Assembly: GCA_029891385.1 (NCBI GenBank)
Contig: JAIWQS010000251.1
Location: 186,001 to 250,000 of the forward strand
DNA from: Erythroxylum novogranatense
Lineage: Eukaryota > Streptophyta > Magnoliopsida > Malpighiales > Erythroxylaceae
Reading direction: 5' to 3'
Length of the DNA: 64,000 bases
Shown: piece by piece, positions 2,011 through 28,139 of the stretch
How positions within the stretch are numbered: the first letter of the stretch is position 1
How the letters are laid out: every line of letters starts with the position of its first letter
Notes under the pieces: generated by a model
Database searches by the model: none
Seen by the model: the letters and a program-made list of their open reading frames with translations, nothing else
Told to the model about the DNA's origin: nothing
Made by a program: the position numbers and the translations under genes

Positions 2011-3821
2011 GTTAGAAATGGCAAGATTTCAAGTGTATGACGTGGATGAAAATAAAATGTTCTATGATCTAGAGAGGTTACAATTGGGTTTAATTACCGT
2101 GATGAGAGTTATGAATAAGGGTTTAAACCTTAGAGTCAGAATATGTTAGTGGGAAATCAAGAGTGATTCTACATCTATGATTCTGACTTAATTGTGAACA
2201 TACATGGGTTTGATGAAATAGTTGTCAAGGTTCAGTTGATTTGCCTAAGTGAACGTACATCTGATAATGGGAGCACCATGGCTAGTGAGTTAGTGGATAA
2301 TTGCTAGTCATAGTTCTTATAATTTAAAGTTCAATATGAGTTAGAATAAGAAGTGAAAGTGCTTATAGTGATCAATTGGGAATGAATTGAGATTGTTATA
2401 AAAAAAGGGATATGATCATGGTATAATTGTTGGGACCCGATCCGGAAACCGGATCCCAACCGAAAAAGCAGAAACGAATGCAAAAAATGAAGTGCGGAAG
2501 CAAAGGGAAATCGAATACGAATACGAACCAATATGAATCTGATCACAAATCGGAAGCAAATCAAATCGAAACCAATTTCCGACATCCGTGAACAAATATT
2601 TTAGAAATCCCTGTCGCGTTGGAAACCTTACACTGAACTGTCCAAAATCCGGTATAAATTTTTCTTTTTCTTTTCTCTCTTTTCTCATTCCTCAATCCAA
2701 ATACATTCACATACAATCGCACTATCCAATGTCCAATACACGTTCATTCATATTTTTCCATATACAAATCATGCTTATATCTCAATTGAACATACAAAAT
2801 CTATATAACATATCCATGTGCAATACCATAACTTAATAGCCTCATCCAAACCTCATAAATTCAATTACGATTTATACACCATTTCATAAATCAAAGCTTT
2901 ATACAAATCATAGTGGCATTTTCAAGCCTTATATGTTACCCATAACCCTAAACCAAAGTACACAATACACAACGATTCTAGACTTCTCAGCAACCATCTA
3001 ACTTAACAATAATACAATATAAACACATGCAAACAGAAATCTTCATTTTCTTTCACCCGATCTTCTTCTCATCACCTGTGGATGGGAATGAAGGGGGTGA
3101 GCTTATAGCTCGTGGGTAACAGTTTATAACTAATAAATAAGCAAAACCTTTTAAAAATGTTTTTCTTTTCTTTTCTTGCAGAAACTTTGTTTGAAACCTA
3201 TAAAGCACGTTTTTAAAAGTTCTTTTCTCGCAGTAGTCGAAATCACAATTTCTAAAACATGAATGCATCAATCATAACACTTCACAATGCAAATGCACCC
3301 ATAACGGCTCGAGAGTTCCATAAACACGACGGAAAACTGAAGTTTTACCGTAAACATGACGAGTCTGATTTCTCAGGATCTCGTGGCCTCTAACTGGCGA
3401 CGGGAGCGGGCTTAAACGTCGGCGCACGTGACTAACGTAAACGTTCCTCTCGCCCAAACACAAGCACATAATCATGCTTAAATCAATTATCGAATGCTCT
3501 TTTCCGAATATACGAAATGCCATGAAATATTCGAGGCATAACACAAATGTATTTGCAATTCATCAAAAGTTCATGTATTGAATCAATAATGATTTTTCAA
3601 ATCATTCATGCAATAATGCAACATTATGATGCAATTGAAATGAGAAGAATCTCTTTGTTTAAAGAAAACAGTAGTGGCTTATAAATTTTATTATAAACAG
3701 GTACCCACCTCGAATCGATGCTAGAAGCTTATCCTTAGCTTCAATTTGACCATTTCTTCTTTTATTATCCCAATTGAAAATTCCCTACACCAATGTCATA
3801 CAAATTCGACCCCATAAATAA

Positions 3822-4270
3822 AAGATGGATTGGCCGTCTTTGGTTTTGTGATGGATTCTGAGTTAAGTGTAGACTTAATTCTTGTTGGTTTGTCAGATAG
3901 TTATTCACAGTTTGTGTTGAACTATCGAATGAACCAAATATCCACCACAATTCGAGTGATCAATCGCTCAAGACAATGAGAACAATGTCGTCAAGCAAGA
4001 TAGTAAGCGTTGTCTATTGGTGGATTCTTCTTCCTCTGGTTCCAAGAAGAAGAAAAGAAGAAAAAGGCTCGAAGTCAAAGGAAGTGCAGCGAAAGGAAAG
4101 AAGAAGACCAAAGAGATCGCACCAAAAGGTACCTGCTTCCATTGCGGTAAGACTGGTCATTGGAGGCGTAACTGCAAAATCTATCTGGAAGAACTGAAGC
4201 AGAAGAAGGCATTAGATGCCTTGACTTCTTCGTGTATGTTTGTCATTGAGGTTATATTGTTTCGATCATA
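3822..4270 (+). pseudogene. Element C gag fragment with zinc knuckle
   Basis: The C-terminal part of a Copia Gag, which packages element RNA. The first part aligns with D's gag at 59660-59830 in several frames. An ORF at 4017-4271 carries lysine-rich sequence and then CFHCGKTGHWRRNC, an intact CX2CX4HX4C nucleic-acid-binding knuckle, at about 4137-4178. The N-terminal half of Gag is absent and the rest has lost its frame at least once, so it cannot make a working capsid protein. Confidence 0.82.
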
Positions 4271-5620
4271 ACATATGGGTATTAGATACGGTTGTGGCTC
4301 ACATATGCAATGATATCACGAGGCCTCGAGGACGATGGCGACTCATAAAGGAGAAATGGACTGCGTGTTGGCAATGGAGCAAGGGTTCTTTGCATTAGCC
4401 GTAGGAACTTATGTTTTGACACTCCCAGGTGGGCTTGTACTTAACTTGGATGATTGTTATTTTGTACCCGTGTTAACAAAGAACATATTATCATTTCTTG
4501 TTTAAATAAATGGTTTCCATTTGTCTTTTGGTAACAATGGTTGTTCTATTAGCTCAAATGGAATGCTTTATGGTCTTGGTACATTATGCAATGGTATTTA
4601 CATATTAGATATGTCACATCTGGTTATGAATGTCAATGACGCTAAAAGACATAAAAGAGATAATTTAAAATCAACTTACTTATGGCATTGTCGCTTGGCC
4701 ATATAAATGAGAGACGATCGCTAAGCTCCACAAGAGTGGAAGTTTAGGGTCATTTGATTATGAATCATATGACACATGTGAATCTTGTTTGTTAGGCAAG
4801 ATGACTAAGTTACCTTTAAGGAAAGGGTGAGCAAGCGATTGGATTATTAGACCTAATACATTCGGATGTATGTGGTCCGATGTCCATCCATGCGAAGTGG
4901 TTGTCGTTACTTCATTACTGTGATCGATGATTATTCTCGATATGGGTACACATGTCGATGAGATACAAATCAAGCGTGTGAAAAGTTCAAACAATTGAAA
5001 TGAAGTAAAAACCAACTTGGGAAAAGTATTAAAACATTACGATCCGATCGTGGTGGTGAATACTTAGACCAAGAGTTTTTGGATTATCTCGAGATAATGG
5101 GATTTTATCTCGGTGGACTCCTCCTTACACACTACTGACATAATGGTGTGGCGAAAGGAGAAATTGAACCTTGTTGGACATGGTACGATTAATGATGGGC
5201 TTTGCAATTGCCAAAATCCTTTTGGGGTATGCGCTTGAGACAAATTGTTTACTTGTTAAGCGAGTTCCATCAAAGTCGATTGATGTTACTCCATATGAGA
5301 TGTGGACTAACAAGAAACCTTATCTTTCTCATTTGAAAGTATGGGGTTGTCACGCTTATGTAAGCGGACACGGTCGAGATAAGCGAAGCAAAATCGACAA
5401 GTGTTTGTTCGTAGGATATCCTAACGAAACAAGGGGATATCAATTCTACCTTCTTTGAGGAACAAAAGGTGTTTGTTTGAGGCATGCTGTCTTTTAGAGA
5501 AAGAGTTTCTTTTAAAAGAGGACGGTGGGAGCAAAATTGAGCTTGAAGAAGTTCAAGATGCTCGGACGAGCAGATCAATCGCTGAACCTAAAGCGTAACT
5601 CATACGAGATGAGGTAACGA
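4271..5620 (+). pseudogene. Element C protease and integrase relic
   Basis: A degenerate aspartic-protease segment starts near 4279: frame-shifted LDT-like sequence followed by HICND. Next comes a GAG-pre-integrase stretch (4521-4706, with LWHC of the zinc-binding region) and integrase core pieces: YSRYGY near 4935, RSDRGGEY near 5047 and the C-terminal TPYEMW block at 5171-5458. Compared with D the frame is broken many times by small indels. The glutamate block near 5150 is frame-shifted (HNGVAKG instead of the family's HNGVAERRN), so the DDE triad is incomplete. Confidence 0.8.
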
Positions 5621-5639
5621 TTCAACCTTCTACTACACA

Positions 5640-6550
5640 CGAAATTCGTGAGGTCAAGTAGGATACGCTTGTTCGAGAGATATGGATTTCGTGAGTGAAC
5701 AGAATGACGTATTGCTCATAGAGGATGATGAGCCTACCACCTATGAAGAGGTTACGAAGAGTTGAGTCGAAAAATGGCCCGTGCCATGAAATCAAATGGA
5801 TTCCATGTATGAAAACCAAGTATGGACTTTGGTTGATGCACTGAAGGATAAAACCTATAGGGTGCAAATGGGTTTTCAAGAAGAAAATCGGCATGGATGG
5901 TAATGTGATTACCTATAAAGCAAGGCTTGTGACCAAAGGCTTTCGTCAAAGACAAGGAGTTGACTATGATGAGACCTTGGTCAAAGAGCAATGCTTAAAT
6001 CCATTAGGATACTCCTAGCCATTGCGCTCATTATGATTATGAGATATGGCAAATGGATGTAAAGACGACTTTCTGAATGGAAATCTGGTGAGGATGTACA
6101 TGACACAACACGAGGGCTTCATTTCAGCTGATGGCGAAAAGGTATGCAAGCTTCGAAATCCATTTATGAATTGAAGCAAGAATCCAGAGTTGGAATATCC
6201 GTTTGATGAGACAATCAAAGAGTTTAGTTTCTCACAAAATCCGGATGAACACCTTGTGTACAAGAAGGTTAATGGGCTGCGATCGTATTCCTTGTGTTAT
6301 ATGTAGATGACATATTGTTGCTAGGAAACGATGTCTCAATGCTACAGTCTGTAAAAATTTGGTTGTCCAAACAATTTGCCATGAAAGACCTTGGAGAAGC
6401 AACTTATATCCTTGGGATAAAGATCTATAGAGATAGTCGAAGAGGTTGCTTGGTCTTTCACGATCAACGATACATAGACAAGGTGCTAAAGAGGTTTAGT
6501 ATGGAGCAATCCAAGAGAGGTTTCTTCCTATTGTTCATGGGATAACACTC
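5640..6550 (+). pseudogene. Element C reverse transcriptase relic
   Basis: Copia reverse transcriptase fragments in several frames. The N-terminal part, near 5790-5990, includes YENQVWTLV and KARLV-like text, and a region near 6040-6230 matches MDVKT..NG and the GLKQAS block after frame correction. The best part is 6294-6545, with the catalytic LYVDDILLLGN followed by MKDLGEATYILGIKIYRD. Stops and frameshifts before and after make it non-functional. It would copy element RNA into cDNA in the particle. Confidence 0.82.
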
Positions 6551-7281
6551 TCGAAGTCCATGTGTCCTCGGACACAGGATGAGAGGATGCGTATGAATAT
6601 GATCCCGTATGCATCTGCAGTAGGATCTATTATGTACGCAATGCTATGTACGAGACCCGATGTATCATATGCTCTAAGTGTTACGAGCAGAAACCAATCG
6701 GATCCTGGTGAGGATCACTGGGTGGCTGTCAAGAATATCCTAAAGTACTTGCGAAGAACTAAGGATGTTTTCTTGATATATGGAGATGGAAGTCTCAGTG
6801 AGCGAGCATCTGAGATGCAGTTTTCAATCGATAAGGGCGACTTCAGTCCCAATCAGTTACGTTTTCACACTAAATGACGGAGGCGATCGGTTGGAAGAGT
6901 TCCAAACAGGAGACGACTGCCGATTCAACGACCGAGGCAGAGTACATTGCCGCATCAGACGCAGCAAAAGAAGCCGTTTGGATCAAGAAGTTCATTACTG
7001 AACTTGGTGTGGTTCCTAGCTGTGATGGACCCATACAGTTGTATTGTGACAACAATGGAGCTATTGCGCAGGCAAAGGAACCAAGGTCTCATCAACGGTC
7101 CAAACACGTACTCCGCCGATACCATTTGATTCGGGAGATCATTGCTCGAGGTGATGTCCTGATAGAGAGAATTTCCACAGAGCAGAATATTGTTGATCCG
7201 TTGACAAAGCCATTGTCACAGAAGAATTTTGATTCTCATGTACTCGCTGATGGTATTAGATACCAAGGCGATTGGCTTTAG
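6551..7281 (+). pseudogene. Element C reverse transcriptase tail and RNase H
   Basis: 6560-6877 keeps the conserved IPYASAVGSIMYAMLCTRP block that ends the RT and the start of the connection. A frameshift near 6790 destroys the first RNase H acidic strand. 6874-7281 is open and carries EAEYIA, YCDNNGAI, the RSKHVLRRYH basic block and DPLTKPL at the end, in the usual Copia order. The stop codon lies 14 bp before the PPT-LTR boundary, as expected for the end of a Copia polyprotein. Confidence 0.85.
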
Positions 7282-7282
7282 G

Positions 7283-7295
7283 TCAAGTGGGAGAT
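7283..7295 (+). other. Polypurine tract of element C
   Basis: CAAGTGGGAGAT directly precedes the LTR start TGTTAAAG, the normal plus-strand priming position. Confidence 0.8.
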
Positions 7296-9143
7296 TGTTA
7301 AAGTAGTGCCCTAAAGGCAATCCCCTTTAGCGCATTTTGTTCATAGTCATGTACAGACTTTATGAATAAATAAAGCAAGGCATATTTCATTTATTTGATA
7401 TTCATTTTATTATGAATTGATAATGATCTTTAATCAAATTAATGAAGTCCCTGATACATGACATAGCATGAAGGAAATTATGATGTGATCATACTATTGA
7501 GATTCCTATCATGTGCAATTATGTCAATATCTAAATTATCCTAGTCATAGGATTAATGAGGCTGGACATCGTTAATCCGGATAGACTAGACATGTCAAAC
7601 TCCTTGATTGGATCAAGCGGTGGATCTCTTTAAAAGCGTAAATATTGAGATATTTGGATTTGACATGTGGATGCTTACTAATGGTAGTAAGTACATTGGA
7701 TGACTGCCATGAGATCATCACATGGATGTCTATACAAATGTCGTTGATAATCTCATCATAGCAATGGTGCAAGTATCCTTAGACTTGAGGTACTCGAGGA
7801 TATCTTGGAATCTTGATTACATACTTTGAATCCATTCCTTGTTGCCTTTCGAGAGGTCGCTCATAGGGTGGTGATTGGAGTGCGACTTGAGGTATTGAAG
7901 GTAATTGAGTAGCCAATAGAGGATTCACCACTTACGTGATAGCAGAAGAGATACCCATGACCTCTTATCGGGATCATTACTTTGAAGTCTCTGGCGCCGA
8001 AACATACATATGTCATGAAGAGGGTCTTCATGGACATATAAAGTAATGAGTCCTAGGACGAGAACCGATTACACTTGGACTAGATTTGATCGATCGGTCT
8101 AGTAAGAGTTGACACATTGCCCATACTCAAACCAAGTGGGGTATAGCATGGTGAAAGGACGAATTGCGGTAATTATCTATGGAAGGGTTAGTGATATGGT
8201 TTCATTAGTCAAACCAATTACTTTCCGGTCAATTGGGGTCATGATGTGTTGCTAGATACCGCTCATGACTTGCTCAGATTAAGTGTTAATCTAAGTGGCC
8301 AACATAACCGGAACCTAATGGGTCACTGCGATAAGAGTGACTCGGAGAATCTGTAAAATAGTTTCGGAAAGAGATCCGATATCTGGAGAGCAATAGGACT
8401 AAATAGATCCCGATGAGATTGGGATATGTCCCGATGAGATCGCGACATCGACATTGCTGAAAACCGTTTCCGGCGATCTTTCAGCGGCGGAGAACTGATA
8501 GTAGGTAGAACAAACTCAGTTTGTTGGACCTCAGAATATATATATATTAATTAATTAATTAAGAATTAATTAATTATATATATATATATATGAATTTCGG
8601 TGGAAGAACCAAATGGAGAAGAAAAAGTAAGTTTGAAAAGTCGAACTTAATCATTCATTTAACATTTCAATGCATTTTTTTATGCCATCAACGTGGATGA
8701 ACATCCACCAAGTCTTCTTATGTCTTTAAGTTGTTAAATAGACACATTAGAAGGCATGGAAAGAGGCTTTACGGTTTTGAAGTGGAGAAGGTCGAAGGCT
8801 TAAGTGTTAAGCTTTGAAAATTGTTTTCATCTTCTTCCTCTCATCCTCTCAAGATTGCTTCTACTCTCCAAGGCTCCACCAAGGTTGATCTCATTTGCTC
8901 TCCAAGGCTAAGGTAAGAGCTAGCACTCTTTTCTTTAGTCTAGCTATTCCCGGGTCAAAGGAGTTTGTCCCGGTTAGGTTTTCCGACCTCTGCGTGGATA
9001 CCGTTAGAAACGGTCTCCTTTGGTCGTTATGGTTTGATTGTTTGTACATACACATGGATCCTGACTTTTGGGAATGTCCCGGGACTCAAAATTTTAAATT
9101 CCGCACCGTGGGCATGTGATGCCTACCCCGGGATTTTCCTACA
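7296..9143 (+). mobile_element. Element C, 3' LTR
   Basis: An LTR of 1848 bp starting TGTTAAAGTAGTGCCC and ending TTTTCCTACA. It matches D's LTR (55380-57183) over its whole length and the partial LTR at 62393-63305. An AT-rich palindromic stretch lies at 8536-8592. At 9144 the sequence returns to B's LTR. Confidence 0.9.
8536..8592. repeat. AT-rich inverted repeat (TA/TTAA)n in a Copia LTR
   Basis: Runs of TATATA flank TTAATTAATTAATTAAG, making a self-complementary stretch. The same place in D's LTR (56641-56700) has a similar but different run, so this is a fast-changing microsatellite within the LTR. Confidence 0.85.
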
Positions 9144-9720
9144 AATCATAGCTCGGATCCTTCATAACATTTGTAGCCCCATGTCTCTCTTTTAATGTAA
9201 AAAAAGAATCAGAACGATCGGAACTCTACCGATCAAGATATCTCTAAAATACTGAACACAGTTCAGCCATTACAACACAGAGACTGAACACTACACCAAA
9301 CTTCAGACCAACATTTGGAAGTCTTAGAGGCTAAATCATAGCTCGGCTCCTTCATAACATTTGTAGCCCCATGTCTCTATTTTAATTTCCAAAAAGAATC
9401 AGCTCAATCAGAGCTCTAGCGGCCTATATATCTACAAAATACTGAACACTATTCAGCCATTACAAAACTGAGACTGAACTCTACACTTAACTTCCGACCC
9501 GAATTTGGAAATCTTAGAGGCTACATTGTTGATTGGATCCTTCATAACATTTGTAGATATATATCTCTATTTTAATTTTCAAAAAGAATCAAATCGATCG
9601 GAGCTCTATATCTCAAGATATCTAAAAAATACCAAACCCTGTTCAACTTTTATAACCTATCAGCTCACTTTCATCCGAGCTATCTTTCTCCATTTAATTC
9701 CAAAACCGATCTATCTAGTA
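9144..9720. repeat. Repeats of about 190 bp in B's left LTR
   Basis: The block with CCTTCATAACATTTGTAG, then TCTCTATTTTAATTT and a GATCGGAGCTCTA-like block, recurs at about 9144, 9333 and 9521. The right LTR has more copies (15729, 15914, 16104, 16294, 16481), so copy number changed between the two LTRs or with C's deletion. Confidence 0.88.
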
Positions 9721-9858
9721 TGGAAAGATACAAAAATGTCTTAGGAATCTAATGCTTCAAGAATCGGGTCGATCGGATGTCGGACGAAGAAGTTATGCTC
9801 AAAAGAGTGAAGGAAGGTCAGAGCTCGGCTAAAAAATCAAAACTCGGCCAGAACGAAG

Positions 9859-9988
9859 ATCGGTCGGTCAACAGAGGTCGGTCGGCCAGCAGAGGTCGGT
9901 CGGCCATCATAGGTTGGTCGGCCAACAGAGGTCGGTCGGCCATCATAGGTCGGTCGGCCAACAAAGGTCGGCCAACAGAGGTCAGCCA
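9859..9988. repeat. Cassette of GGTCGGTCGGCC repeats in B's left LTR
   Basis: About six units of 18 bp (GGTCGGTCGGCCAACAGA and variants), then shorter 14-bp units. The GGCC core is self-complementary and the arms are CG-rich, unlike the AT-rich surroundings. It lies between the block GATGTCGGACGAAGAAGTTATG (before) and CATAACTTTTGACTCCGAGC (after). Confidence 0.93.
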
Positions 9989-10020
9989 GCACCCAATCCG
10001 ACCATCAAACTTCTAACACT

Positions 10021-11000
10021 CATAACTTTTGACTCCGAGCTCCGAATTTTACAAACTCGATACCGTTGGAAAGATAAAAGAAAGATATACAATTTTTAAG
10101 AAGGACTCAAAGGCAAGATCGGTCTTTAAAGGGGTCAAAAATGCACTTAAAGATGACCAATTGATAATCTCCTCAAAACATTACACAACACCTCAACTTG
10201 CAAACATCATAACTTTTGACCCAGAACTCTAAATTTGACAAACTCGGTGTCTATAGAAAGGTAAAAGAACCCTCTAAAACTTTCATGAAGGCCTTAAAAA
10301 TCAGATCGACCTCTAAATGAGTCAAAAACTCCACACAAACTGACTGGTCGATCAACCTCACACTAAACAACATCAGAACTTCTAAAAATCATAACTTTCT
10401 ATTCTCTTGTCCAAAATTTTCGTGCTTTATATCAATGGAAAGATAAAAACAAGCTCTACAACTCTCAAGAAGGCTACTTGATCCCATTCCATACACATCA
10501 GTTCCGAATCTGCATCGATCACAGCACACACAAAACTTCCCTATGAACACATCAATTCAAAATTTGCAGCATCTGCACTCAACTTCAATAACTCACATCT
10601 CCCAACCTCCACATCCAAAAATAGCACATAATACATCATTGGGAAACTATGGAGGTCCTCTATAACATTTAAGAATGCTATTTGATCCAATTCAAACCAC
10701 AATAGTCCAGAAATCGCCTCAAAACACAACATATACAATCCTACACTTAGAGCATTTCCCAAAACCAAAGCAAAATACACTTAACTTTCAAAGATCATAA
10801 CTTTCAATCTCGATATCGAAAAATAGCATACTTTATGGCTACGAAAAGCTCTCAACATAAGCTACAATTTTCATTAAGATCATTTTCTCAAAATGTGCCT
10901 AAATCAAAATTTCAACTCTCAAGTCAAACTTTCTATCTTCAAAAGTCAACTTTCTTAATTTCTTCAAAATATAACACTTTCACTAATTTTTTTTTTGCTT
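10021..11000. repeat. Diverged units of about 185 bp beginning CATAACTTT
   Basis: The phrase CATAACTTT, then a CGA-containing block, ACTTTAT or similar, GGAAAG and AAGAAGG, recurs near 10021, 10211, 10391 and 10797, with a weaker copy near 10590. The right LTR has the same series from 16990, and E has related units from 44980. Confidence 0.7.
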
Positions 11001-11208
11001 TTCAACTTCCAATTCAATCAACTAGTTCATTTTGACTTTCATAACTCATACAACTCTACTCAAATTTCAAAGTCATCAAAATCAATCACTTCATTTCTCA
11101 TCAATCTCCTTTAAGCACAATAACATCTATAACACAATTCATATCCGAAAACACTCATCGAATTCATTTTAATATTTCTAATTCCTACCGAAAGTTCGGA
11201 GTCCAACA

Positions 11209-11835: not shown

Positions 11836-13883
11836 TGTTGGGACCCGATCCGAAAACCGGATCCCAACCAAAAAAGCAGAAACGAATGCGAAAAACGAAG
11901 TGCGGAAACAAAGCGAAATCGAATACGAATACGAACCAATATGAATCTGATCACAAATCGAAAGCAAATCAAATCGAAACCAATTTCCGACATCTGCGAA
12001 CAAATATTTTAGAAATCATTGTCGCGTTGGAAACCTTAGACTGAACTGTCCAAAATCTGGTATAAATTTTTCTTTTTCTTTTCTCTCTTTTCTCATTCCT
12101 CAATCCAAATACATTCACATACAATCACACTATCCAATGTCCAATACACGTTCATTCATATTTTTCAATATACAAATCATGCTTATATCTCAATTGAACA
12201 TACAAAATCTATATAACATATCCATGTGCAATACTATAACTCAATAGCCTCATCCAAACCTCATAAATTCAATTACGATTTATACACCATTTCATAAATC
12301 AAAGCTTTATACAAATCATAGTGGCATTTTCAAGCCTTATATGTTACCCATAACCCTAAACCAAAGTACACAATATACAACGATTCTAGACTTCTCAGCA
12401 ACCATCTAACTTAACAATAATACAATATAAACACATGCAAACAGAAATCTTCATTTTCTTTCACCCGATCTTCTTCTCATCACCTGTGGATGGGAATGAA
12501 GGGGGTGAGCTTATAGCTCGTGAGTAACAGTTTATAACTAATAAATAAGCAAAACCTTTTAAACATGCTTTTCTTTTCTTTTCTTGCAGAAACTTTGTTT
12601 GAAACCCGTAAAGCACGTTTTCAAAAGTTCTTTTCTCGCGATGAGTCGAAATCACAATTTCAAAACATGAATGCATCAATCATAACACTTCTGATGCAAA
12701 TGCACACATAACGACTCGAGAGTTCCATAAACACGACGAAAATTGAAGTTTTACAGTAAACACGACGAGTCCGATTTCTCGGGATCTCGTGGCCTCTAAC
12801 GGCGGTAGGGAAGCGAGCTTAAGCGTCAGCGTGCGTGACTAACGTAAACGTTCCTCTCTCGCTCAAACACAAGCACATAATCATGCTTAAATCAATTATC
12901 AAATGCTTTTTTCTGAATATACGAAATGCCATGAAATGTTCGAGGCATAACATAAATATATTTGCAATTCATCAAAAGTTCATGTATTGAATCAATAATG
13001 ATTTTTTCAAATCATTCATGCAATAATGCAACATTATGATGCAATTGAAATGAGAAGAATCTCTTTGTTTAAAGAAAACAGTAGTGGCTTATAAATTTTA
13101 TTATAAACAGGTACCCACCTCGAATCGATGCTAGAAGCTTGTCCTTAACTTCAATTTGACCATTTCTTCTTTTATTCTCCCAATTGAAAATTTCCTACAC
13201 CAATGTCATACAAATTCGACCCCATAAATAACATAATCCTTAATATTGAACTTAGAAAACACTAATCCCACATATAATCAAGCTACCTAAATCACCAATT
13301 TTCAAAATCCCCAATTTACAAAATTAGGCAAAACCCTAATTAACTTACATCCAAAATTAAACCCATAGTACTAAGCAATCATCAAAATTGACTTCATACT
13401 TCACAAACCCATACCATTTTTCATAATTCTAAACCAAAACTTCAGAAGAAACTCAAATCTTAAAAATTGCTCTTACCTCATTTCTCCTCCATTTTCAGAT
13501 TTTCTAGGCTTGAAAGGAAGCTCTCTTCATCCTTCACGTTTTTCCCTCTTGACTTAACTTAGAAAGCTTGCTTGAAGTCCCCTAAAAATAGAACCCTAGC
13601 TCTCTCTCTCTTTCTTTCTCTTTCACTCATCTGAAAGCTTGCTCTCCCTTCTCTCTTCTTATTTTTCTTTCCTTTTGTTCAAGTGTCGTGCCTCACCTAA
13701 TAAAAACAACAGCCCAATCCTTTTTATAGTGCCATTTCATTTAATGAATGGGGAATGACCCATAAGCCCCTCATTTAAGCCTATAAACTTAACCCTTTAA
13801 GTAAACTTCTAAAATTGCCCCTTCATTGGTCTTTATAACTGACATCTTGTTTGATTATTTCGATCAAGTAAAGAAGCCATTTG

Positions 13884-15551
13884 TGATATGTGCTTAATTG
13901 TTGATATTTTTAATTATTTTCACTTAGCGATTATTGACATAAAAATGCTTAAGATACTCACTTTAATTCATATTTTATTTTAGGTACAATTTGGAAGTAA
14001 AGAAATTAAAGTGAGTTAGAAGCATCATATATGGGTCAATTTCTGGAAAATTTATTTCTACTTGCTTTTATGGAGGAAGAAGAAAAAAATAACAAAAGGA
14101 CAAGAAAAAATGAAAAATAAAAAGAGCAATGCACAAGAGGAAAATGAGGAGAGCATATTAAATTGTCAAGGGTAACAGTGCGGCATCAGTAGTGGGCAAT
14201 AGAGGAAAACGTAACAGACGCATGCGTTTTGGTTTAAAACGCAATGGAGGAGACGCTACAACAAGAAGGCAGAAGGTTTAAAGGGTTAAAAATTAAATAG
14301 CCAAGAGGGACGACTGCGTTTCACGCAGGTATCCTGCGTGAAACGCAGCCAGCGTCTGCGTTTAACGCAGACAGTTGCGTTAAACGTAGCGTTCAAGGAA
14401 GCGCAGCGCACACTGCGTAAAACGCAGTGTGCTGCGTTAGTGAGGAGGATAGGAGGGTTTTAACTCTAAAATCTTAATTGTCTTATCGCAGAAACAATGA
14501 CGCCAGAGAGGAGAAAAGACAGCGGCACTTGAAGAGTAGAGAGTGCGGGCTGAAGGAATAAAAGGCAGTTGCGTTTTGCATAAGGGTCTGCGTTCAACGC
14601 AGTTTTCTGCGTTAAAACGCAGACGAGGAGAGCGAGCCAGCAGTAGGAAATTTTGGCTAGGGATTAAATGTGGGCTAAAGCTATTTGTCGGAAAGTACCG
14701 ATGAAGGGCTGAACATCCCGACGCCGGTTCGGAGGTAAAGTCGACGCCGACGATCCGGGTTAAGTGGTTTTATTATTATTGTTGTTTCTTTCTCTCATTA
14801 GAAATTGTTTGTGTTATCTGATTTTAACTGATTTGGGTTTTATGTATGGATAATCGGATTTTTGTTATTATTCGGTTATTTGTGTATGAACCTATTGGGT
14901 ATTGTGATTTGGTAATTTTAATGCGTTCATTGAATTGCTAATTGCGAACTCATTGCTAGAATTTCAATTTAATCCGTAATTGTTATGTTGAAATTCGTTT
15001 GTAGCGACTAATGATTCTTAATCATTAGGGATAATACGACTAAGTTAAATGACTAGAAACATGTGGTTGTTGCCTTGATTAATCGGTTTTCCTAATTCGT
15101 AATCTTCGCCTAATTAAATCTGAGATCGTATCCTAGGTTATTAGGTGGTTAGGTTTAATCAACGATCTTATCTTTGATTAAACAAAACCTAAGGGAAAAC
15201 TCGGGTTAAGTTTTAATCCACGATTAATAATTCCTATGAGAGGTTAAAGAACAACAAATTAATAAAATCTGCTTAGCCAGGGTGTAGGTCGAGATTGAAC
15301 CAAAGAATCGGGTCCCTACCAAATTTCCCACTTTTATCATTTTTGCATGTTTTCTTTAATTTGTTTTTATTAGTTAGTTTCATTTTTATTTTCTTTCTTT
15401 GAAAAATCCAAAACCCCCCTTTAGTGTAAACACCGATTAATTTCTTTTCATAAACTTTAAACACACTCTCTGTGGGATCGACCTAGACTTGCCACTGCTA
15501 CAGTAGTAGTCTAGTTATTTTAATTTTGACTAGCGAAATGACACGCGGTCA
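13884..15551 (+). mobile_element. Solo LTR L, Athila-like
   Basis: Flanked by ATTTG at 13879-13883 and 15552-15556. Taking out L and one copy restores sequence that matches E at 43950-43995, which confirms the borders. It starts TGATATGTGC and ends in the GACTAGCG...CGGTCA phrase that in Athila/Tat elements precedes a TTGGCGCC primer site. No internal region is present, so it is a solo LTR left by LTR-LTR recombination. It contains a GC-rich palindromic cassette. Confidence 0.88.
14311..14632. repeat. CTGCGTT...AACGCAG palindrome cassette in LTR L
   Basis: Repeated self-complementary motifs such as CTGCGTTTAACGCAG, CTGCGTGAAACGCAG and CTGCGTAAAACGCAG occur in two clusters, 14311-14441 and 14569-14632. 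About ten TGCGTT or AACGCA arms are visible, many pairing with a neighbour to form perfect or near-perfect hairpins. Confidence 0.93.
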
Positions 15552-15724
15552 ATTTGTCAAGAATTTCTTTTTGGGAAATGTCCCTCTATGTCTTACGAAT
15601 CCATCGCTTCGAGAATCAGATCGATTGGACACATAGCTCAAGATATCTCCAAAATCTTGAAGTTTGTTCTTGGACAGAAATTTGAACACTACACCTTACA
15701 TCCAGGCCAATTTGGAAGTCTTAA

Positions 15725-16660
15725 AGGCTAAATCATAGCTCTGCTCCTTCATAACATTTGTATCCCATGTCTCTATTTTAATTTTCAAAAGAATCGGATC
15801 GATCGAGACTCCGGTCGAGATATCTCCAAATCTTGAACACTGTTCAGCCATTACAACTCTGGTGAGCGAATAAACACACCAAACTTCGACCCACATTTGG
15901 AACTCTTAGAGGCTAAATCATAGCTCGTCTCCTTCATAACATTTGTAGCCCCATCTTTCTGTTTTAATGTTCAAAAAAATCAGATCAATCGGAGCTCTAC
16001 CGATCAAGATATCTCCGAAATACTGAATACTGTTCAGCTATTACAACACAGAGACTGAACACTACACCAAACTTCCGACCCACATTTGGAAGTCTTAGAG
16101 GATAAATCATAGTTGGGATCCTTCATAAAATTTGTATCTCCATGTCTCTATTTTAATTTCAAAAAAGAATCAGATCGATCGGAGCTCTACCGATCAAGAT
16201 ATCTCCAAAATACTGAACACTATTCAGCCATTATAACACAGAGACTGAACACTACACCAAACTTCCAACCAACATTTGGAAGTCTTAGAGGCTAAATAAT
16301 AGCTCGGATCCTTCATAACATTTGTACCCCCATGTATCTATTTTAATTTCCAAAAAGAATAAGCTCAATATGAGCTCTAGAAGACTATATATCTCAAAAA
16401 TACTGAACACTATTCAGCCATTACAAATCTGAGACTGTCTACACTTAATTTCCGACCCGAATTTGGAAGTCTTAGAGGCTACATTGTCGATTGGATCCTT
16501 CATAACATTTGTAGATATATATCTCTATTTTAATTTTAAAAATGAATCAAATTGATCGGAGCTCTATATCTCATGATATCTCAAAAATACCAAACCTTGT
16601 TCAACTTTTATAACCGATCAGCTCTTTTTCATCCGAGCTATCTTTCTCCATTTAATTCCA
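15725..16660. repeat. Five tandem units of about 190 bp in B's right LTR
   Basis: Units start near 15729, 15914, 16104, 16294 and 16481 with GGCTAAATCATAGCTC or a variant and each ends near ATTTGGAAGTCTTAGAG. Neighbouring copies are very similar. The unit length is near the plant nucleosome repeat. Confidence 0.9.
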
Positions 16661-16810
16661 AAACTGACCTATCTAGTATTGAAAGATAGAAAAATGTCTT
16701 AGGAATCAACGCTTGAGAATCGAATTCGATCGGATGTTGGACGAAAAGTTATGCTCAAAAGAGTGAAGGAAGGTCGAGCTCGGCGGAAAATCAAAGCTCG
16801 GCGAGCGAAG

Positions 16811-16976
16811 ATCGATTCGGCCATCGAGGTCGATCGGCCAGCAGAGGTCGATCGGCCATCATAGGTCGGTCGGCCAACAGAGGTCGGTCGGCCAACAGAG
16901 GTCGGTCGGCCAACAGAGGTCGGTCGGCCAACAAAGGTCGGCCAATAGAGGTTGGCCAATAGAGGTCGGCCGGCAC
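16811..16976. repeat. Cassette of GGTCGGTCGGCC repeats in B's right LTR
   Basis: Same slot and motif as 9859-9988 but with a different number and order of units: about ten, including three identical GGTCGGTCGGCCAACAGA units and GGTCGATCGGCC variants. Expansion or contraction has occurred between the two LTRs. Confidence 0.93.
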
Positions 16977-18196
16977 CTAATCTGACCATCAAACTTCTAA
17001 CACTCATAACGTTTGACTCCGAGCTCCGAATTTTACAAACTCAATACCGTTGGAAATATAAAAGAAAGATCTACAATTTTCAAGAAGGACTCGAAGGCAA
17101 GATTGGTCTTTAAAGGGGTCAAAAATGCGCTCGAAGATGACCAACTGATAATCTCCTCAAAACTTTACACACCACCTCAACTTGCAAACATCATAACTTT
17201 TGACCCAGAACTCCAAATTTGACAAAGTCGGTGTCTATAGAAAGGTAAAAGAACCCTCTAAAACTTTTATGAAGGCCTTAAAAATCAGATCAACCTCTAA
17301 ATGAGTCAAAAACTCCACACAAACTGACTGGTCGATCAACCTCACACTAAATAGCATCAGAACTTCTAAAAATCATAACTTTCTATTCTCTTGTCCAAAA
17401 TTTTCGTGCTTTATATCAATGGAAAGATAAAAACAAGATCTAAAACTCTCAAGAAGGCTACTTGATCCCATTCCATACACATCAGTTCCGAATCTGCATC
17501 GATCACAGCACACACAAAACTTCCCTATGAACACATCAATTCAAAATTTGTAGCATCTGCACTCAACTTTAATAACTCACATCTCCCAACCTCCACATCT
17601 AAAAATAGCACATAATACATCATTGGGAAACTATGGAGGTCCTCTATAACATTTAAGAATGCTATTTGATCCAATTCAAATCACAATAGTCCAGAAATCG
17701 CCTCAAAACACAACATATACAATCCTACACTTAGAGCATTTCCCAAAACCAAAGCAAAATACACTTAACTTTCAAAGATCATAACTTTCAATCTCGATAT
17801 CGAAAAATAGCATACTTTATGGCTACGAAAAGCTCTCAATATAAGCTACAATTTTCATTAAGATCATTTTCTCAAAATGTGCCTAAATAAAAAATTCAAC
17901 TCTCAAGTCAAACTTTCTATCTTCAAAAGTCAACTTTCTTAATTTCTTCAAAATATAACACTTTCACTAATTTTTTCTTGCTTTTCAACTTCCAATTCAA
18001 TCAACTAGTTCATTTTGACTTTCATAACTCATATAACTCTACTCAAATTTTAAAGTCATCAAAATCAATCACTTCATTTCTCATCAATCTCCTTTAAGCA
18101 CAATAACATCTATAACACAATTCATATCCGAAAACACTCATCGAATTCATTTTAATATTTCTAATTTCCACCGAAAGTTTGGAGTCCAACAATAAT

Positions 18197-20917: not shown

Positions 20918-23125
20918 TGTAACATCCCACCCTCGATGGGAAGGGTAGAATGGTAATTTGGAAAAGGATTAAGAGGGTTTAGGATTTATTTTGCAATGTT
21001 CATGCACATCTGATTCATGAATAGTGAAATTGCACATGAAAATGACTGTACATGCATTCATGACATTTCCCGGTAATTGTGCTTAAATGAGATTTTATTT
21101 TAGAAAATGTGATTTATGGGCTTGAAAATTTAATTGGAGTGGATTGTTATGTGTTTTATATTTTCGGGGAATTTTAGAAATTTTTCTGAACTTTTTCGGA
21201 GAAAATTCTCGGACCGAAAAAATCGCCAAGTAGCGAACCTGTTGATTTTTGGTAGTAAAAATTGCTGTCCAATGGCACTACAATATTGGGTATATTATTT
21301 TGGATTTAGAATTTGGGCCATTAGAATTGAATGGGTCAAATTTCATTAGGGTTTCTTGATAAATCCTATTACATGTTTTTGTCTTATCCTTCTTTTGTCC
21401 TTTTCTTCTAAATGGACAAGTGTCCTACACCATTAAATGGTTTTGTCTTATGCTTACCTATGAAAGTCGGCAACTTCAACTTTAAAGAAGGAAAAAAAAT
21501 CATTTGTTTGCTAATATCCTCCTTCATACGAAACTTCACTCTTCCTTCTAATTCATTTGATGTTCTTTAAGTTTCCTAGTGTTTAACTCTTCCTTCCACT
21601 TTGTTCTTTCTAAAAAGGGCCAAGCATACACCCCTTTCTCTTTTGGCATGATGATGTTTATGTATGGTGTGGAAAAGAAGAGGATTGGTGTATTAGGAGA
21701 AGGATTGGAACATTGAAAGACTTGATTAGGTAAGTTGTTGTTTTAAGCTTTAGTTATGCTTTTAATGAATGAATTGGTAGTTAGATGCATTAAATGGGAA
21801 TTATTGTGCATGAATTATGATGTATTGTGTATAAATTTCATAAAGCTTAGGGTTTGATTTTATGGGTAGGTTACTTCCTTGATTTGGTTTATGATTGTTA
21901 AAAGATAAATGATTAACATGTTTGGGTTGGTTTTGTGATGCTTGATGAATGGAAATTTAGGGATGATAATTGTGTGTGTGGTGTACTGCCATTTTTAAGG
22001 TTAGGTGCTTAGGTTAAGGTCTTGATGACCTAGTGGCTGAATTCTTGCCTCAATTGGATGCTTTTTGATGTGTAATTGGCATTGGAAGTGATAGAATATA
22101 AGTGTAAGAGCAAAGCTGGAAAATGCAAATTGATCATGGTTTAATGTTTTTGCCATAACTAATTGTGTGGCTAAGAAAATGAGGTGAGGTTTGTGCTAAA
22201 TTAAACTTTAGATGTTTGGCTTCAATTTCTTGTGAAATAAGTGTTATCTAATTGTAACTTGAAGAGGTTGAATTTCTGCCTTGAAAGTGAACTATACTGG
22301 TTGTGTGAACAGTATCCGAATTAGATGACCTGAAACTTTGATGAGTTTTCTAGATTGATTTAGGAGGAATTAGTGAAAATGGTCTTAATTAAAGTTGAAG
22401 CCTATCTTGTTAGATTTCCATTGCCACTGATTTTGCAATTTTTTGATATGTACATTGAGAGTTATGAATTGTTAACTATTGACTGGTTATGTGCATTTTG
22501 GTGAAACCTAGCCATAAGTGTAGGTTTTGTGAGTATTGTGATTGGAAGCAAGTTTAGAGATTTCTGTGATTTGGTTTGGCTCAAGTGATCTTCTGGAAAG
22601 TTGTATAGGAAGCAATTATCTTGAAAATGAGATATACTATACTATTTTTGGATGTCAGAATTAGGAATTAGGAATTTTCAAAGATTGGACCTAAGTTAGG
22701 CCATTGGCTAGTGATCAGGGCAGCCACTTGCATGACAGTTTTGAGTTTGTTAGAGATGGAATTGGCTGTTAAGCCCTTCATGAGAAGTGTATTATTCTGT
22801 TCGATCTTTTCATAGGTATAAAGTATGCAAATTTTTGACATTTTTGCAAGAAGTTATACTTTTTATAAAATTGTTGTTCGATTGTGTGGTTTCGATTAGG
22901 TAGAATCATTCATTGAATTGTTTGACCTACTTAGCAATTGAATTTGATTTCATGTTGTTCATGAAAGTTGTAGGTCACATTCGATCTTTCATATAAATCT
23001 TGTAATTTTAACAAAGGAATGAAGTTATGGAATTTATAACATGTTGCACTGTTTTGACAAAATGTTGCACTGTTTTGAGAGGCATTGTGAAGGCAGTAAA
23101 TTTGAGTGTATTTTTGACACCCTTA

Positions 23126-23148
23126 CCCTGCGTTTGGTTGCTGTCCCC
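23126..23148. repeat. Left terminal inverted repeat of K
   Basis: CCCTGCGTTTGGTTGCTGTC matches the reverse complement of the right end at about 17 of the first 20 positions. A second partial copy, GTTTGGTTGTCG, follows near 23195. Confidence 0.9.
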
Positions 23149-25084
23149 GTGAGTGGGGACAGTGGACAGGACATTAAAATCTTGTCATCCGTGCATGTTT
23201 GGTTGTCGACTCCCCCATTCTGTCATCTGCTTCCGGTGTACAGAGTCAGAAATATAATGTCCATTCCAAAACCGAAAGACATATGCTCTCTATCTCTGAC
23301 TCCGAACAACGAAACTCGGTGGAGCCGAAAATACCCCTCTCCTTCGTCATTGTCTGTCCATCTCCGACGGCTTCGCCTCCGACAACCCCTCTTTTCCTCA
23401 CGCTGGTAGAAGGCTCGTCGGTTCTCGTGGCCGGACGTCCACTCTTCTTCTCTCGTCGGGCTTCACTCGCATGACATCCACTCTTCTTCTCTAAGTAAGT
23501 TTTGTCAAGATCCGAAAGCTCTCTCCTTTTCAAGACATTACGATTCTGGCATTCCCGTAAAGCTCTCTCCTTTTCAAGACATCCCATCTCTGTACCAACT
23601 TCCCCTGTCTTGAGGCTCCTCCGGTCGTTCCATTCCATCTTCTTTTAATTTGGTTCCATGTCTTTTAGACTTACATTTGACATCATTTCATCGTCTTTTC
23701 TTCTCAAATTGATTTTGCTGTTTAGATCTGTCTAAATGCGTGGATTTTACTCTATGATAATGTCGTTAGATTGTCACTCGAATGGCCAATTTCTACTCTG
23801 ATGATAATCTCACTCTCTCTTCTCTCGACTCACATTCGATTACTCCGTTTGGCTTATATACATTCTCAATGTTTCTTATAAGAGATCTATGTTACTCCGC
23901 ATGCTCCTCTTATCTACTTTCGAAATGTTTCTCAATAGGTTTGATGATGTTGAAATTTGTTGGATGGTTGCTGGGTGTTGGATCATTCTCTGACCACTAA
24001 AGTTTAACTTGTGTATGATAGGAATTTTCAAGCTTTTTGGTTGAATCCGAGCACCTCACAACTCCCATCCAAACTGCTTCTGCTGTTTCTTTGAACAGGT
24101 AAGTATGCTTTTCTGTAAGCTTTTTAGGTTTACATGGAATTTCCCAGTAGTGATCTAGTTCTTGTTGGCCATGATTTGGAGAATGCAGTTCCCCTGCACT
24201 ACATTAGCTGATTACACTTTCTTAGTTTAGGTAAATGTAATATTTGTCACGATCTCATTCATTCCCAGTTTGTAAAGTTGAGGAAATCTTCATTCATATA
24301 GATATAGAAGAGGATCAAGTACTTTTTATGTGATCGTATTGAATTGTAGTTGATATTAGATGGTTTTCATTTAACATTTATTACTTGTTGTTGGTATATG
24401 AAAGCTTTAAAGGAGAGATATGCTAGCTAGCAAGGTAAGGAAAGATCCATATTTATTTAATTGGATGAAAGAAATCACAAGTGTATAGTTTGGGTTGATG
24501 TTAAAGGAGAATATAACTAAAATAGGTACTTCATAAGTCATTAACACCTATGAGGAACTTCATGGGTCATCGTATGCTTGGTACTTAATGGTCTTCATTG
24601 CACATGCAAATAGGACTTAACATTTACATCGCTTTTTCTTGCTAATGTTCTACTTTAGGACAGCTCTGCTTTTTCTGATTATGTTAAGTGCTATCCACTA
24701 CATTAGTTGATTTTGGTTTGCACAAAACTTTGTGTGAAGTTTGTACAATTGCAGCCAATTGTACAAACTTGATTCGTACTCGACATTTAAATCGGCATAG
24801 TATTTATGATGATAACAATGTATAAATACTTTGCAGATAGTATTTATTTACAAACATGGATAACGGCGTCGGCGTGATATGTAAGGCTTTGACATTTATG
24901 CATGTATAGAATGAGCATTTGGAATTCTTGAAAGTGATAATATTGGTAGTGTTGGCCTTATCTGAAGGAAGCCAAGAGAGTGAACTTGCATTAGGGAGTA
25001 GGGCTTTGTGATGCCATCTAGGGAAGCTAATATTTATAGGATTTTGCATGAGGGTGATAGGAATAGTCGATTGGGATTTAAGGA
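23149..25084. other. K left flank, no recognised gene
   Basis: About 1.9 kb between the left terminus and the transposase relic. It holds two direct copies of AAAGCTCTCTCCTTTTCAAG (about 23515 and 23561) and a relatively GC-rich part (23260-23640) with open frames on both strands, none with a recognisable domain. It may be the transposase promoter and leader. Confidence 0.55.
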
Positions 25085-26225
25085 TGGGCGTTAACACATT
25101 TAATGTGTTATGTGACATGCTTCAAGCACATGGTGGATTGACGAATCTTGGCCATCGCCTATTGAAGAAAAGGTGCTTATCTTCCTACGAATATTAGCTC
25201 AAATGAATCTAATAGAGTATTACAAGTCGAGTTGATGAGATCAGGAGAAACAATAAGTAGGGCCTTTCATAGTGTGTTGAAGGCGTCTTGAGGCTGCATA
25301 ATTACATTATATGTGAAGCTCATACCAATTGCAGATGATTGCAAAGATCCTAAATGGAAATGGTTTAAGGTTAGTAAACTTCCCTTGCAACTACAAAGTG
25401 TCTCATATCAGTATTGTAAATAACTAATGACATAACTATGGTTTCTTGGAATTTTGTTCAAAGGGTTGCCTTGGTGCCCTAGATGGGACCTACATAGATA
25501 TTACGGTTGCCCAATATGAAAAACCAAGATACAGAGGCCGGAAAGGCAGAATATGCACAAATGTTTTAGGGGTGTGTGATAAGAACATGAACTTTGTTTA
25601 TGTTCTTGCATGGATAGGAGGTTGAGATCGGATTATAGGGTTACGCACAATGCTATAACGAGGACCCATGGGCTTCAAGTGCCAAGGGTATGTAACCGGA
25701 CTTATACATAACTTCCACAAGGTTTGATGCTAAATATGCACAATAGTTAAACTATGTTTTGTGTATAGGAAACTACTACTTGGTCGATCTTGGCTATACC
25801 AGCGGTCTGGATTTCTTGCACCTTTTAGAGGTACAAGATACCACATTCAAAGTGGGCAAGAGATGACGGGGCACCTAGGGCGAGAGGAGCTTTATAATAG
25901 CGACACTCATCTCGCTAGGAATGTGATTGAACGTGCATTTGGGCTACTGAAAAAAAGATGGAAAATCTTAAGAACTCCATCTTTTTACTCACCCACAACT
26001 CATGGGCGCATAATTATTGCTTGTACCCTTCTGCACAACTTTATTAGGCTGCATATGGCTGAAGATCCAGAAGAGCATAGTCCTATAGAACCCGAGGATA
26101 TGCCAATTGGGGAAGATGCTTCTTTGCCTGCCACTGTTGATCGTGTTGAGGCAAGTGCTGAATGGAGTCAATGGAGAGATGAATTGGCGACGAACATGTT
26201 TGATGAATGGAGAAGTAACCATTAA
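25085..26225 (+). pseudogene. PIF/Harbinger transposase relic
   Basis: This would be the DDE nuclease that cuts and pastes K. The N-terminal part (25085-25369) reads MGVNTFNVLCDMLQ, then loses frame. A likely intron (25370-25463, GT...AG) precedes GCLGALDGTYIDITV, which carries the first catalytic Asp near 25480, and RICTNVLGVCDKNMNFVYV. A TGA near 25623 falls just before the region of the second Asp. A probable second intron ends at 25768. The last exon (ORF 25761-26225) has GFLAPFRGTRYH and RNVIERAFGLLKKRW with the catalytic Glu, then an acidic tail typical of the family. Stops and frameshifts in the first half make it inactive. Confidence 0.88.
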
Positions 26226-26469
26226 ATTAATACTTTCTGTTTAGAGTTGCGGTTTTGAGATAACTGAATTGCAGGATTTATTTCGGTTTGGTTGTATTGT
26301 AACTGAAATGAAAAATAGTTTTACTCACTTTTTCTCATAAGAATTCTATATTTGTCGCATGTTACTACAAATTTCATATTTTCCTAATCACCACTGCAGT
26401 TGTTGTCAAATGTCGGTTTGCTAAAAACATTTGTTAGTAATGGTTTGCAATGTTGTGGGTGTCGACTAT

Positions 26470-27450
26470 TGCGTCGAATAGGTGAAATGGCAAGAACTTG
26501 GGTGACAAAGTGAAACAGATGCATTAGTTACCTTCATGGAGGCGGTGTGGTAATGGTCGGGAGGCCGATAATGGCCAACTCAAGCCCGGTACTTTCCAAC
26601 TTCTTGCCGTCGGATGGTGGGCAGTTTCTGATGCGGGATTGACAAGCGACATGTCAAAAATAAGCCTGGCGGTTAAAGACAAATATCAAACGACATTTGA
26701 CATGTTAAATTGCGGTGGCTTTGGATGGAATGAGTCCAAGCAATGTGTGGAGGTCGATAGCAAGCAAGTCCTTGAAGAATGGATGAGGTAATTCTATTAT
26801 GATTGTTTTTATAAAGTGTTTGACAAATCATCGTATTTTGTTACGACATGTTATGTTGCTTATTCGAGCCACTCGACTGTGTACTACACTCTGGCAAGCC
26901 ATTCCGCTTTCCACAGACTTGAAAACTTCTTTCAGGCGGGACAGGCGGTGGTAGAAAAGTGAGCATGCTCTTGATCCGATGATGGTCAGACACCACTGTT
27001 GGTGCTTGATGAGGTGAAGCGAAGCGAACCACCGTCTTTGATCCAACTTTGAAGACCCTTTAGATCAACTACCCCACAAACAACTCCTCCTCCAACTACT
27101 TCACCCGGTATACGGTTCCGCGCATCTTCTACCAACAACTGCGGAGGTCAAGACAAACCAAAGGGAAACGTAAGATGCGGGATACTGAAATGTTGGAACG
27201 CATTGCAGACACATTAGCTGCTGCCATTGAATCAGGCAAAACGAATGCGGACAGGCTTGCGGATGCCATTGAAGGAATGAGTGGTGCGAAGTTGAGTGCG
27301 GAACTTGTCAATTTTGGCTTCCCCGTTCATGAAATTGTCGTATTGCGAAATAATGGGGAGTAAACCCCATTTAATGAGTGTTTATTGGGGTTTACCACTT
27401 GAGCTGAAACAGGTTTATGTTAGGAGCATTTTAGATGTAGACACATGAGA
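26470..27450 (+). pseudogene. Myb/SANT-like second ORF of K, broken
   Basis: PIF/Harbinger elements usually encode a Myb/SANT-like protein that helps the transposase bind the ends and enter the nucleus. Here several frames together match that type: a central segment near 26670-26788 reads TTFDMLNCGGFGWNES, a splice-like AGGTAATT follows, and 27175-27363 is an open helical segment (LERIADTLAAAIESGK). The later GLPLELKQVYVRSILD piece (about 27389-27437) resembles the family C terminus. The order fits, but stops and frame changes separate every piece and the SANT domain itself is poorly preserved. Confidence 0.6.
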
Positions 27451-27619
27451 TGCTGTATAATTTCTTAATTTGTATGATGATGAAACAGTCAACGTGTGAT
27501 GTTGACTAATGGATGTTTGAACTATTATCTAACTTATGTATGGTTGCTTATCTGAATTTTTAATATTTGTCTTTTCCCGATGGATGATGATAATATGATT
27601 CATTTTCAGGTTGTCAAAT

Positions 27620-27904: not shown

Positions 27905-28139
27905 CATGGGCTCTAGCATTTGCTCTCATAGTCATTGACATAATGTTGGCAATTATGGTTCATAGCATTATTAATAAATTTTAAGTGCTTCATGTATGAT
28001 CAACTAATTATGTTATTTCTGTTCAGGATATGCTTAGCTGTTTGTTTTTAAGTTATGTTGACGATTAAAGTCATTAATTATATGAATGTATGTTGAACAT
28101 CTGATGTAATTAATTATATGAATGCTGAGATGATGTAAT

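Follow-up and report, generated by a model that had tools for sequence, protein, structure and literature searches.

A cassette slot between head-to-head repeat units in long, probably gypsy-type LTRs of Erythroxylum novogranatense

Introduction

The LTRs of Sireviruses carry high-copy short palindromes, often different in each element, and some copies lie outside the LTR (Bousios et al. 2010, PMC2829016). In the portions of that paper available to us, these motifs are reported as specific to Sireviruses (Ty1/copia). They lie a short distance upstream of a TATA box, and nearly all of them, Tnd-1 excepted, have a CGG-CCG core. In maize, the Sirevirus palindromes form clusters in the LTR, and the same palindrome is the commonest Helitron motif (Bousios et al. 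2016, as cited in the accessible text of PMC10760457). The Tnt1 and Retrolyc1 elements present a modular evolution, in which related elements have differing U3 regions (PMC1838419, available in part). Likewise, related gypsy elements of the Ogre/Tat type differ in the short tandem repeats that they carry at one place in the 3'UTR (Macas et al. 2009, as cited in the excerpt of PMC7004042 that we had). The hypothesis offered there is that copies packaged together undergo illegitimate recombination or abnormal strand transfer (PMC7004042).

Here we study a window of 64,000 nucleotides from Erythroxylum novogranatense. The original prediction for this window claimed that LTRs of three kinds, A, B and E, carry different cassettes at one site of a shared scaffold, and that no description of this was known. 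The second claim goes too far, since close parallels exist in the Sirevirus motifs, the U3 modules of Tnt1 and the 3'UTR arrays of Ogre. In the literature searched, which covers few subscription papers and includes the available parts of the plant element surveys PMC6317226 and PMC8282616, we met no account of such a slot in the LTRs of gypsy-type elements. New here are a slot at a fixed site in LTRs of gypsy type, a scaffold of head-to-head units and the apparent exchange at the slot. Known are the Sirevirus, Tnt1 and Ogre parallels.

The proposed modular exchange resembles the modular evolution of Tnt1. However, the Tnt1 work compared RNaseH and U3, whereas both LTR arms are compared here, and the available text of that paper describes neither a palindrome slot nor a repeated-unit scaffold (PMC1838419). 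The Ogre/Tat arrays, as far as the excerpt goes, lie in the 3'UTR, outside the LTR and in another lineage; in contrast, the present arrays lie inside LTRs, and in both LTRs of B. As with the maize palindrome, one motif (AAGTCGACT) is common to different elements, here copia elements and the A slot, although the accessible text of PMC10760457 describes no slot exchange.

Materials and methods

We searched for repeat units with a profile built iteratively from the CATAACTT unit. A 34-base flank motif gave 5,018 exact matches in the host genome (1.3 Gb), and its backwards control gave 0. Loci L078-L107 are the 30 matches that come first by coordinate among the 5,018, all on a single contig (C1). 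Loci L109-L147 are 39 of 70 further matches listed on the same contig, thinned by us. From the 70 loci L078-L147 we dropped L086, L131 and L139, which have no 5' unit, and L101, in which the wrong unit was anchored. Nine loci added by choice (four B, three E and two D) brought the set to 75 LTRs. The two-arm tree holds 72 of them; two D loci and L108 were left out, as their arms were too short.

Cassette classes were assigned with our own regular expressions, written after the slots had been read. L091, L108 and L125 were relabelled, L115 was labelled by hand, and A and A2 were merged into one class for the trees. Among the search matches, we fetched 28 of 42 for B, including the one in the window itself, 20 of 41 for E, 14 of 42 for D and 1 of 40 for A. 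The breakpoint scan covers three chosen LTRs; their parents and the groups G1 and G2 were picked after earlier comparisons had been seen.

Results

The coordinates of all features are given in Table 1. B is a single insertion with sense on the minus strand, with an identical 5-bp ATAAT at both outer sides, according to junction reading and self-comparison. So, its two slots, B1 and B2, belong to the two LTRs of one insertion and are not independent. The internal region of B has only 627 bp; across 2428-18191, a 6.4-kb LTR (11836-18191) adjoins an internal region of 0.6 kb. The sense 3' arm of B is a 190-bp tandem repeat, and its copy number is unequal between the two LTRs of the insertion (9143-9632, 15683-16590).

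Table 1. Coordinates of the slot-bearing LTRs, their slots and arms, and the arrays used for comparison.
Feature	Coordinates	Strand	Remarks
B 5' LTR	11836..18191	-	ATAAT flank beyond 18191; PBS-like TGGTATCAGAGC just inside 11835
B 3' LTR	2428..11208	-	Interrupted by copia fragment, ~3830-9143; ATAAT flank before 2428; PPT-like tract just inside 11209
B1 slot (B 3' LTR)	9798..10020	-	Array 9859-9988, 18-bp units
B1 arm, sense 3' side	9159..9797	-	4 units, all '-'
B1 arm, sense 5' side	10021..10878	+	4 units, all '+'
B2 slot (B 5' LTR)	16754..17004	-	Array 16811-16976
B2 arm, sense 3' side	15567..16753	-	7 units, all '-'
B2 arm, sense 5' side	17005..17862	+	4 units, all '+'
E solo LTR	41065..45580	-	4.5 kb; TSD TGGAT; inside gypsy gag region
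E slot	44601..44979	-	GC-palindrome array 44671-44925
E arm, sense 3' side	43991..44600	-	4 units, all '-'
E arm, sense 5' side	44980..45401	+	3 units, all '+'
A 5' LTR end	~1176		PBS TGGTATCAGAGC at 1183
A 3' LTR	20918 to ~30591	+	PPT-like tract before 20918
A slot (A1)	28964..29131	+	AAGTCGACT boxes 29021-29106
A arm, sense 5' side	22384..28963	-	3 units, all '-'; split by Harbinger-type insertion
A arm, sense 3' side	29132..29193	+	Innermost unit
D LTR	63543..64000	-	Sense 3' end at 63543; runs off window end
D slot	63849..63909	-	Short, without array
D units flanking slot	63781..63992	.	63781-63848 '-', 63910-63992 '+'
AAGTCGACTT array in Sirevirus-like (Ty1/copia) LTR S	34486..34700	+	Second copy ~52738-52933; comparison
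AAGTCGACTT array of copia element C, between LTR and gag	58310..58480	+	Comparison

A Pfam Retrotrans_gag domain lies to the left of the E solo LTR, in a gag region that we take to be Athila-like. This interrupted region is itself nested in the Sirevirus-like element at 34255-53537. In the genome, the E matches include at least seven pairs spaced 4.8-5.3 kb; given these pairs, E may be non-autonomous too. The A 3' LTR holds a Harbinger-type insertion (~23125-28853, DDE_Tnp_4). D is a fourth slot-bearing member at the window end, absent from the original prediction. For comparison, S shows RVT_2, TGGTATCAGAGC and several GGGGGAG tracts. Its LTR pair has 1.7% substitutions over the LTR, and a 19-bp difference that corresponds to one AAGTCGACTT unit. 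In copia element C, three sub-threshold microRNA-family matches fall on the leader AAGTCGACTT array at 58310-58480.

The cassettes of B, E and A are at the predicted places, at the same site of a shared LTR scaffold, and D adds a fourth content. In B1, B2, E, A1 and D alike, the slot is bounded by the innermost '-' and the innermost '+' unit of the CATAACTT type. The units measure ~84 bp, lie ~181 bp apart and are oriented outward from the slot. The unit profile matches the window 32 times; the reversed window gives 0 matches at E<1, and 20 dinucleotide shuffles give 0 at E<1e-3. Spacing is 182 +- 8 bp within the window (18 spacings; 3 longer). It is 181 +- 9 bp over 48 fetched B and E loci, one of them the window's B1 (246 single spacings and 23 longer gaps). 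Around the slots of the fetched B and E loci, 365 of 368 units point outward and 3 inward. A spacing of ~181 bp is near the nucleosome repeat length.

Two other readings of the unit were examined. We rejected a structured RNA: 23 aligned units show no consensus pairs, and the six Rfam matches at E<=1 are all under their gathering scores. Relatives in viral contigs gave 0 matches with one pattern and 14 with a looser one, none of which the unit profile confirms (best E 6.5).

As predicted, the flanks can be aligned, and the middle mostly cannot. The 20 pairs of innermost units have identities of 57-94% (z 3.1 to 49.6). Nineteen exceed all 200 shuffles, and E-D on the sense 5' side ties with the best shuffle. 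Among the ten slot pairs, B1-B2 aligns (z 81), eight do not (z -1.2 to 0.6), and B1-E shows a slight match of 43 nt (z 3.9), which we read as a shared linker. Some details of the prediction changed. The block named beside the cassette, GATGTCGGACGAAGAAGTTATG, occurs exactly only once (9776), with diverged versions in B2, E and A. Its orientation does differ in A; this is only an effect of strand, since A has sense plus, B and E have sense minus, and the slots are alike in sense orientation. CCTCATGAGG has a single exact occurrence. The A1 boxes are palindromic over 8 bp only (AGTCGACT). The B units, described as palindromes, are in fact tandem 18-mers, with 1 perfect hairpin in B1 against a shuffle mean of 0.7 and 4 in B2 against 1.2.

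The other arrays differ in the same count. Perfect hairpins are 18 against a shuffle mean of 4.6 in E, 9 against 1.9 in S, 16 against 1.9 in C (in the leader, not the LTR), 0 against 1.1 in A1 and 2 against 0.5 in D. By these counts, the arrays of E and S are palindromic like the Sirevirus motifs, and those of B1 and A1 are not. S itself resembles the Sirevirus LTRs with repeated motifs, in the portions of the literature at hand. On the other hand, AAGTCGACTT of A and S has no CGG-CCG core, the B 18-mer is not a palindrome, and the element that hosts D is of gypsy type. No TATA box at a common place downstream of the slot was found in A, B and E, which also departs from the Sirevirus arrangement. 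TATA-like sites follow the slot start at 1512 in A, at 392 and further in B2, and at 2860 and further in E; in S, one lies ~120 bp after the last box. Finally, in the slot families the type of array changes at one slot of one scaffold, which differs from Sireviruses as far as their description is available to us.

Regarding the type of element, a D internal piece (2.4 kb, from one genomic copy) presents, in order on the sense strand, RT_RNaseH_2 (8.8e-25), RT_RNaseH (2e-18) and SH3_Tf2-1 (2.5e-29). RVT_1 (0.00058) is under its cut-off. A Chromo match of 22.1 bits (E 0.00015) has the right position for an integrase end, with a curated cut-off of 25.1. These pol domains show that Ty3/gypsy elements carry the scaffold, at least in D. 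Given the sub-threshold chromodomain match, the D-type elements are probably chromoviruses. No coding region of A, B or E was recognized; for A, a Pfam scan covered two internal ORF pieces and gave no match. A, B and E are linked to D by the common units and, in B, by 35 bp of the LTR end.

In the genome, the slots of the 75 LTRs hold GC palindromes (E/F), AAGTCGACT boxes (A), an 18-bp repeat (B), a GATCGTGC palindrome (G), or are empty. Reading L078-L107 by eye (n=30), we found 14 E/F, 3 A, 1 A2 (CTAGTCGACTAG), 3 B2, 3 G, 1 H (at a locus without a detected 5' unit), 4 empty and 1 D-like slot. L109-L147 (n=39) hold 24 E/F, 8 empty, 2 B2, 2 G, 1 A, 1 H and 1 hybrid (L131). All 28 fetched B loci carry the B cassette, with a query that included the slot, and all 20 fetched E loci carry the E cassette, with an array-free query. 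L086 and L139 have the flank motif with another palindrome array (CACACGG/CCGTGTG) and no detected 5' unit; perhaps they are a further LTR type.

The comparison of scaffold and slot phylogenies, proposed in the original prediction, was made on this sample. Cassette class requires 8 changes on the two-arm tree of 72 LTRs, where the least possible is 4 and the shuffled mean is 29.1. Single-arm trees give 8 (74 rows) and 9 (73 rows). Class thus mostly tracks the scaffold, as 0 of 200 shuffles are as low as 8. A single origin is rejected for E/F (AU p 3e-87), G (2e-4) and empty slots (5e-47), and the B cassettes form a single clade. The predicted replacement of cassettes is supported by these changes and rejections, together with three LTRs that switch ancestry at the slot edge (below). 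A comparison of nearest clades through pairwise alignments flagged 14 of 72 rows; its identities of 1.00 are artefacts of end trimming, and we took no counts from it.

One ancestral cassette could also have diverged vertically, with array evolution so fast that the classes seem unrelated and with empty slots as deletions. The clustering of classes on the tree fits this explanation. Likewise, E and F arrays look alike and intergrade, as do B and B2 with their common GACCGACC, in both cases by eye. Part of the variety is then gradual divergence, which the original prediction had listed as a refutation, though within classes. The L114 slot matches a G slot weakly (19.5, slightly above 18.0 in 60 shuffles), but G against L111, L125 and L145 stays within shuffles, and the slots of A, B and E share a linker match at most. 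The rejection of E/F, G and empty slots as single clades also speaks against vertical divergence, as do the G1 and G2 arms, which have different relatives around the same cassette. We consider this explanation unlikely.

One scaffold clade of 13 rows contains empty slots as well as A, A2 and E/F cassettes. Two of its members, L111 and L114, carry arrays, and six relatives of that clade (arms 78% and 83%) have a short AT-rich sequence instead. The L111 cassette is 65% identical to E over 257 columns with gaps counted, and the arms are 57% and 64% (81% by a looser measure). Since the cassette is about as close to E as the arms are, old shared ancestry with losses could account for it, as could a recent transfer of the L111 array from E.

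The A clade, with filled and empty states, could also suggest that every cassette entered the slot as a small transposon or as foreign DNA. Against this, tandem periods of 18, 36 or 20 bp exceed shuffles in B, E and C (S is marginal; A1 and D do not), and a non-systematic view noticed no terminal repeats or target duplications. We find such an insertion very improbable.

The slot does not change faster than its arms in every family. The LTR pair of the B insertion has 4.1 gap events/100 bp in the slot, against 0.08 and 0.77 in the arms, and the E copies have 8.5 against 0.8 and 1.1. The E excess is what vertical divergence would lead one to expect. In the 28 B loci, where the query held the slot, the slot has 1.8 gap events/100 bp against 3.4 and 1.2, and its identity is 91% against 87% and 86%. 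In the S array, substitutions amount to 0.5%, compared with 1.7 and 2.0% in the surrounding sequence, and gap events are 1.0 against 0.4 and 1.0. The B loci and the S array contradict a general rule of faster slot turnover.

Many small slot indels in the E copies L043-L062 are possibly assembly errors in GC-rich palindromes. We therefore discarded E slot hypervariability as a biological feature, being inseparable from such indels. Even in L047/L052, the LTRs of one young element with arms of 99.6 and 100%, the slot has 6.3 gap events/100 bp, and the 100% arm itself has 1.3. These indels would fit an assembly artefact as the source of the slot differences. However, it would account for the E indel excess only: the classes differ across long stretches in many loci, and the D slot agrees in all 14 genomic copies fetched (of 42 matches), with a length of 59-63 bp and one AAACATGTTT palindrome. 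An artefact is hardly credible as the general explanation.

L083/L084 (G1) and L088/L135/L138 (G2) share the G cassette, and their sense 5' arms are 94% identical, against 59% between G1 and the empty group I and 66% between G2 and F. On the sense 3' arm, G1 is 93% identical to I and 76% to G2, and G2 is 91% identical to F and 90% to E. The 3'-arm clades have supports of 99/99 (G1+I) and 96/86 (G2+L145+L125+F+E), and a single G1+G2 clade is rejected on this arm (AU p 0.0022). The 5' arm likewise rejects a clade of only G1 and G2 (p 0.00016), since L145 and L125, which hold E/F cassettes, are placed among them; all seven form a 5'-arm clade with support 73/100. L145 combines a G-type 5' arm (88%; F 65%) with an E/F cassette, and its 3' arm is 86% identical to G2 and 87% to F.

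The scan places the switch point of L084 10-40 bp past the slot (informative sites agreeing 308/324 and 96/106) and that of L138 at the slot edge (220/241 and 87/98). For L145 it lies 8-26 bp before the slot and is weaker, with 120/129 sites agreeing and 109/164 on the weak far side. The three switch points fall within the conserved units or next to them, and there these units raise the similarity between families. This suggests homology-guided template switching at the units; gene conversion between genomic copies would look alike.

Arrays could instead be born repeatedly at a fixed and fragile site, through duplications of local sequence and with no exchange. By eye, the B linker carries array-like CTCGGCCAGA pieces. 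The single palindrome pair in the L125 slot and the one palindrome of D might represent such a beginning, and the Ogre 3'UTR arrays, as far as described in the text we had, are a precedent. Nevertheless, repeated birth explains neither the differing arm ancestries joined at the slot nor why two kinds of 3' arm share the G cassette. We give it little probability.

Discussion

The reading that we favour, and consider likely, is that the slot is a fixed site in a long gypsy-type LTR scaffold, whose conserved units serve as homology patches, and that cassettes or LTR halves are exchanged between families. Two conserved head-to-head units bound the slot, which either is empty or contains a short array; several types of array occur, and they change repeatedly on the scaffold tree. 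Reverse transcriptase may change template at the homology patches between co-packaged RNAs. Alternatively, genomic copies could convert each other at the units. In both routes, a cassette or a whole LTR half would pass between families, and slippage could alter the copy number of the array afterwards. More tentatively, and by analogy, the cassette might be a putative cis-regulatory array that binds host factors. Its replacement could follow from the host silencing or outgrowing it, an idea already put forward for the palindromes of Sireviruses and the U3 regions of Tnt1.

A broader reading is possible but rather doubtful. The slot would be a standing exchange site, where head-to-head units dock and gypsy-type LTRs trade regulatory cassettes and LTR halves, with a pool that extends beyond one superfamily. 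In the window, AAGTCGACT is confined to four arrays: the A slot, both LTRs of S and the leader of copia C. The spacers of A and C are similar beyond the core in one of three comparisons (score 221 against a highest of 217 in 500 core-preserving shuffles); A1-S (p 0.15) and C-S (p 0.066) are not significant. L131, an F-type LTR (89.5% to L092) that adjoins a C-type copia LTR (87.6%), has four AAGTCGACTT boxes immediately ahead of the E/F array of its slot (L131:616-720, sense). The AAGTCGACT arrays, the A-C spacers and L131 are suggestive of a cassette pool common to superfamilies.

With this slot, the vague idea that LTR retrotransposons exchange control modules becomes directly testable. It offers one site, few cassette types, flanks of mixed ancestry and a flank motif that occurs thousands of times in this one genome. 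The results also suggest that palindrome arrays, reported as a Sirevirus specialty, are more widespread. If the cassettes have the regulatory function proposed here, these LTRs would offer natural promoter swaps for the study of how plant elements evade silencing.
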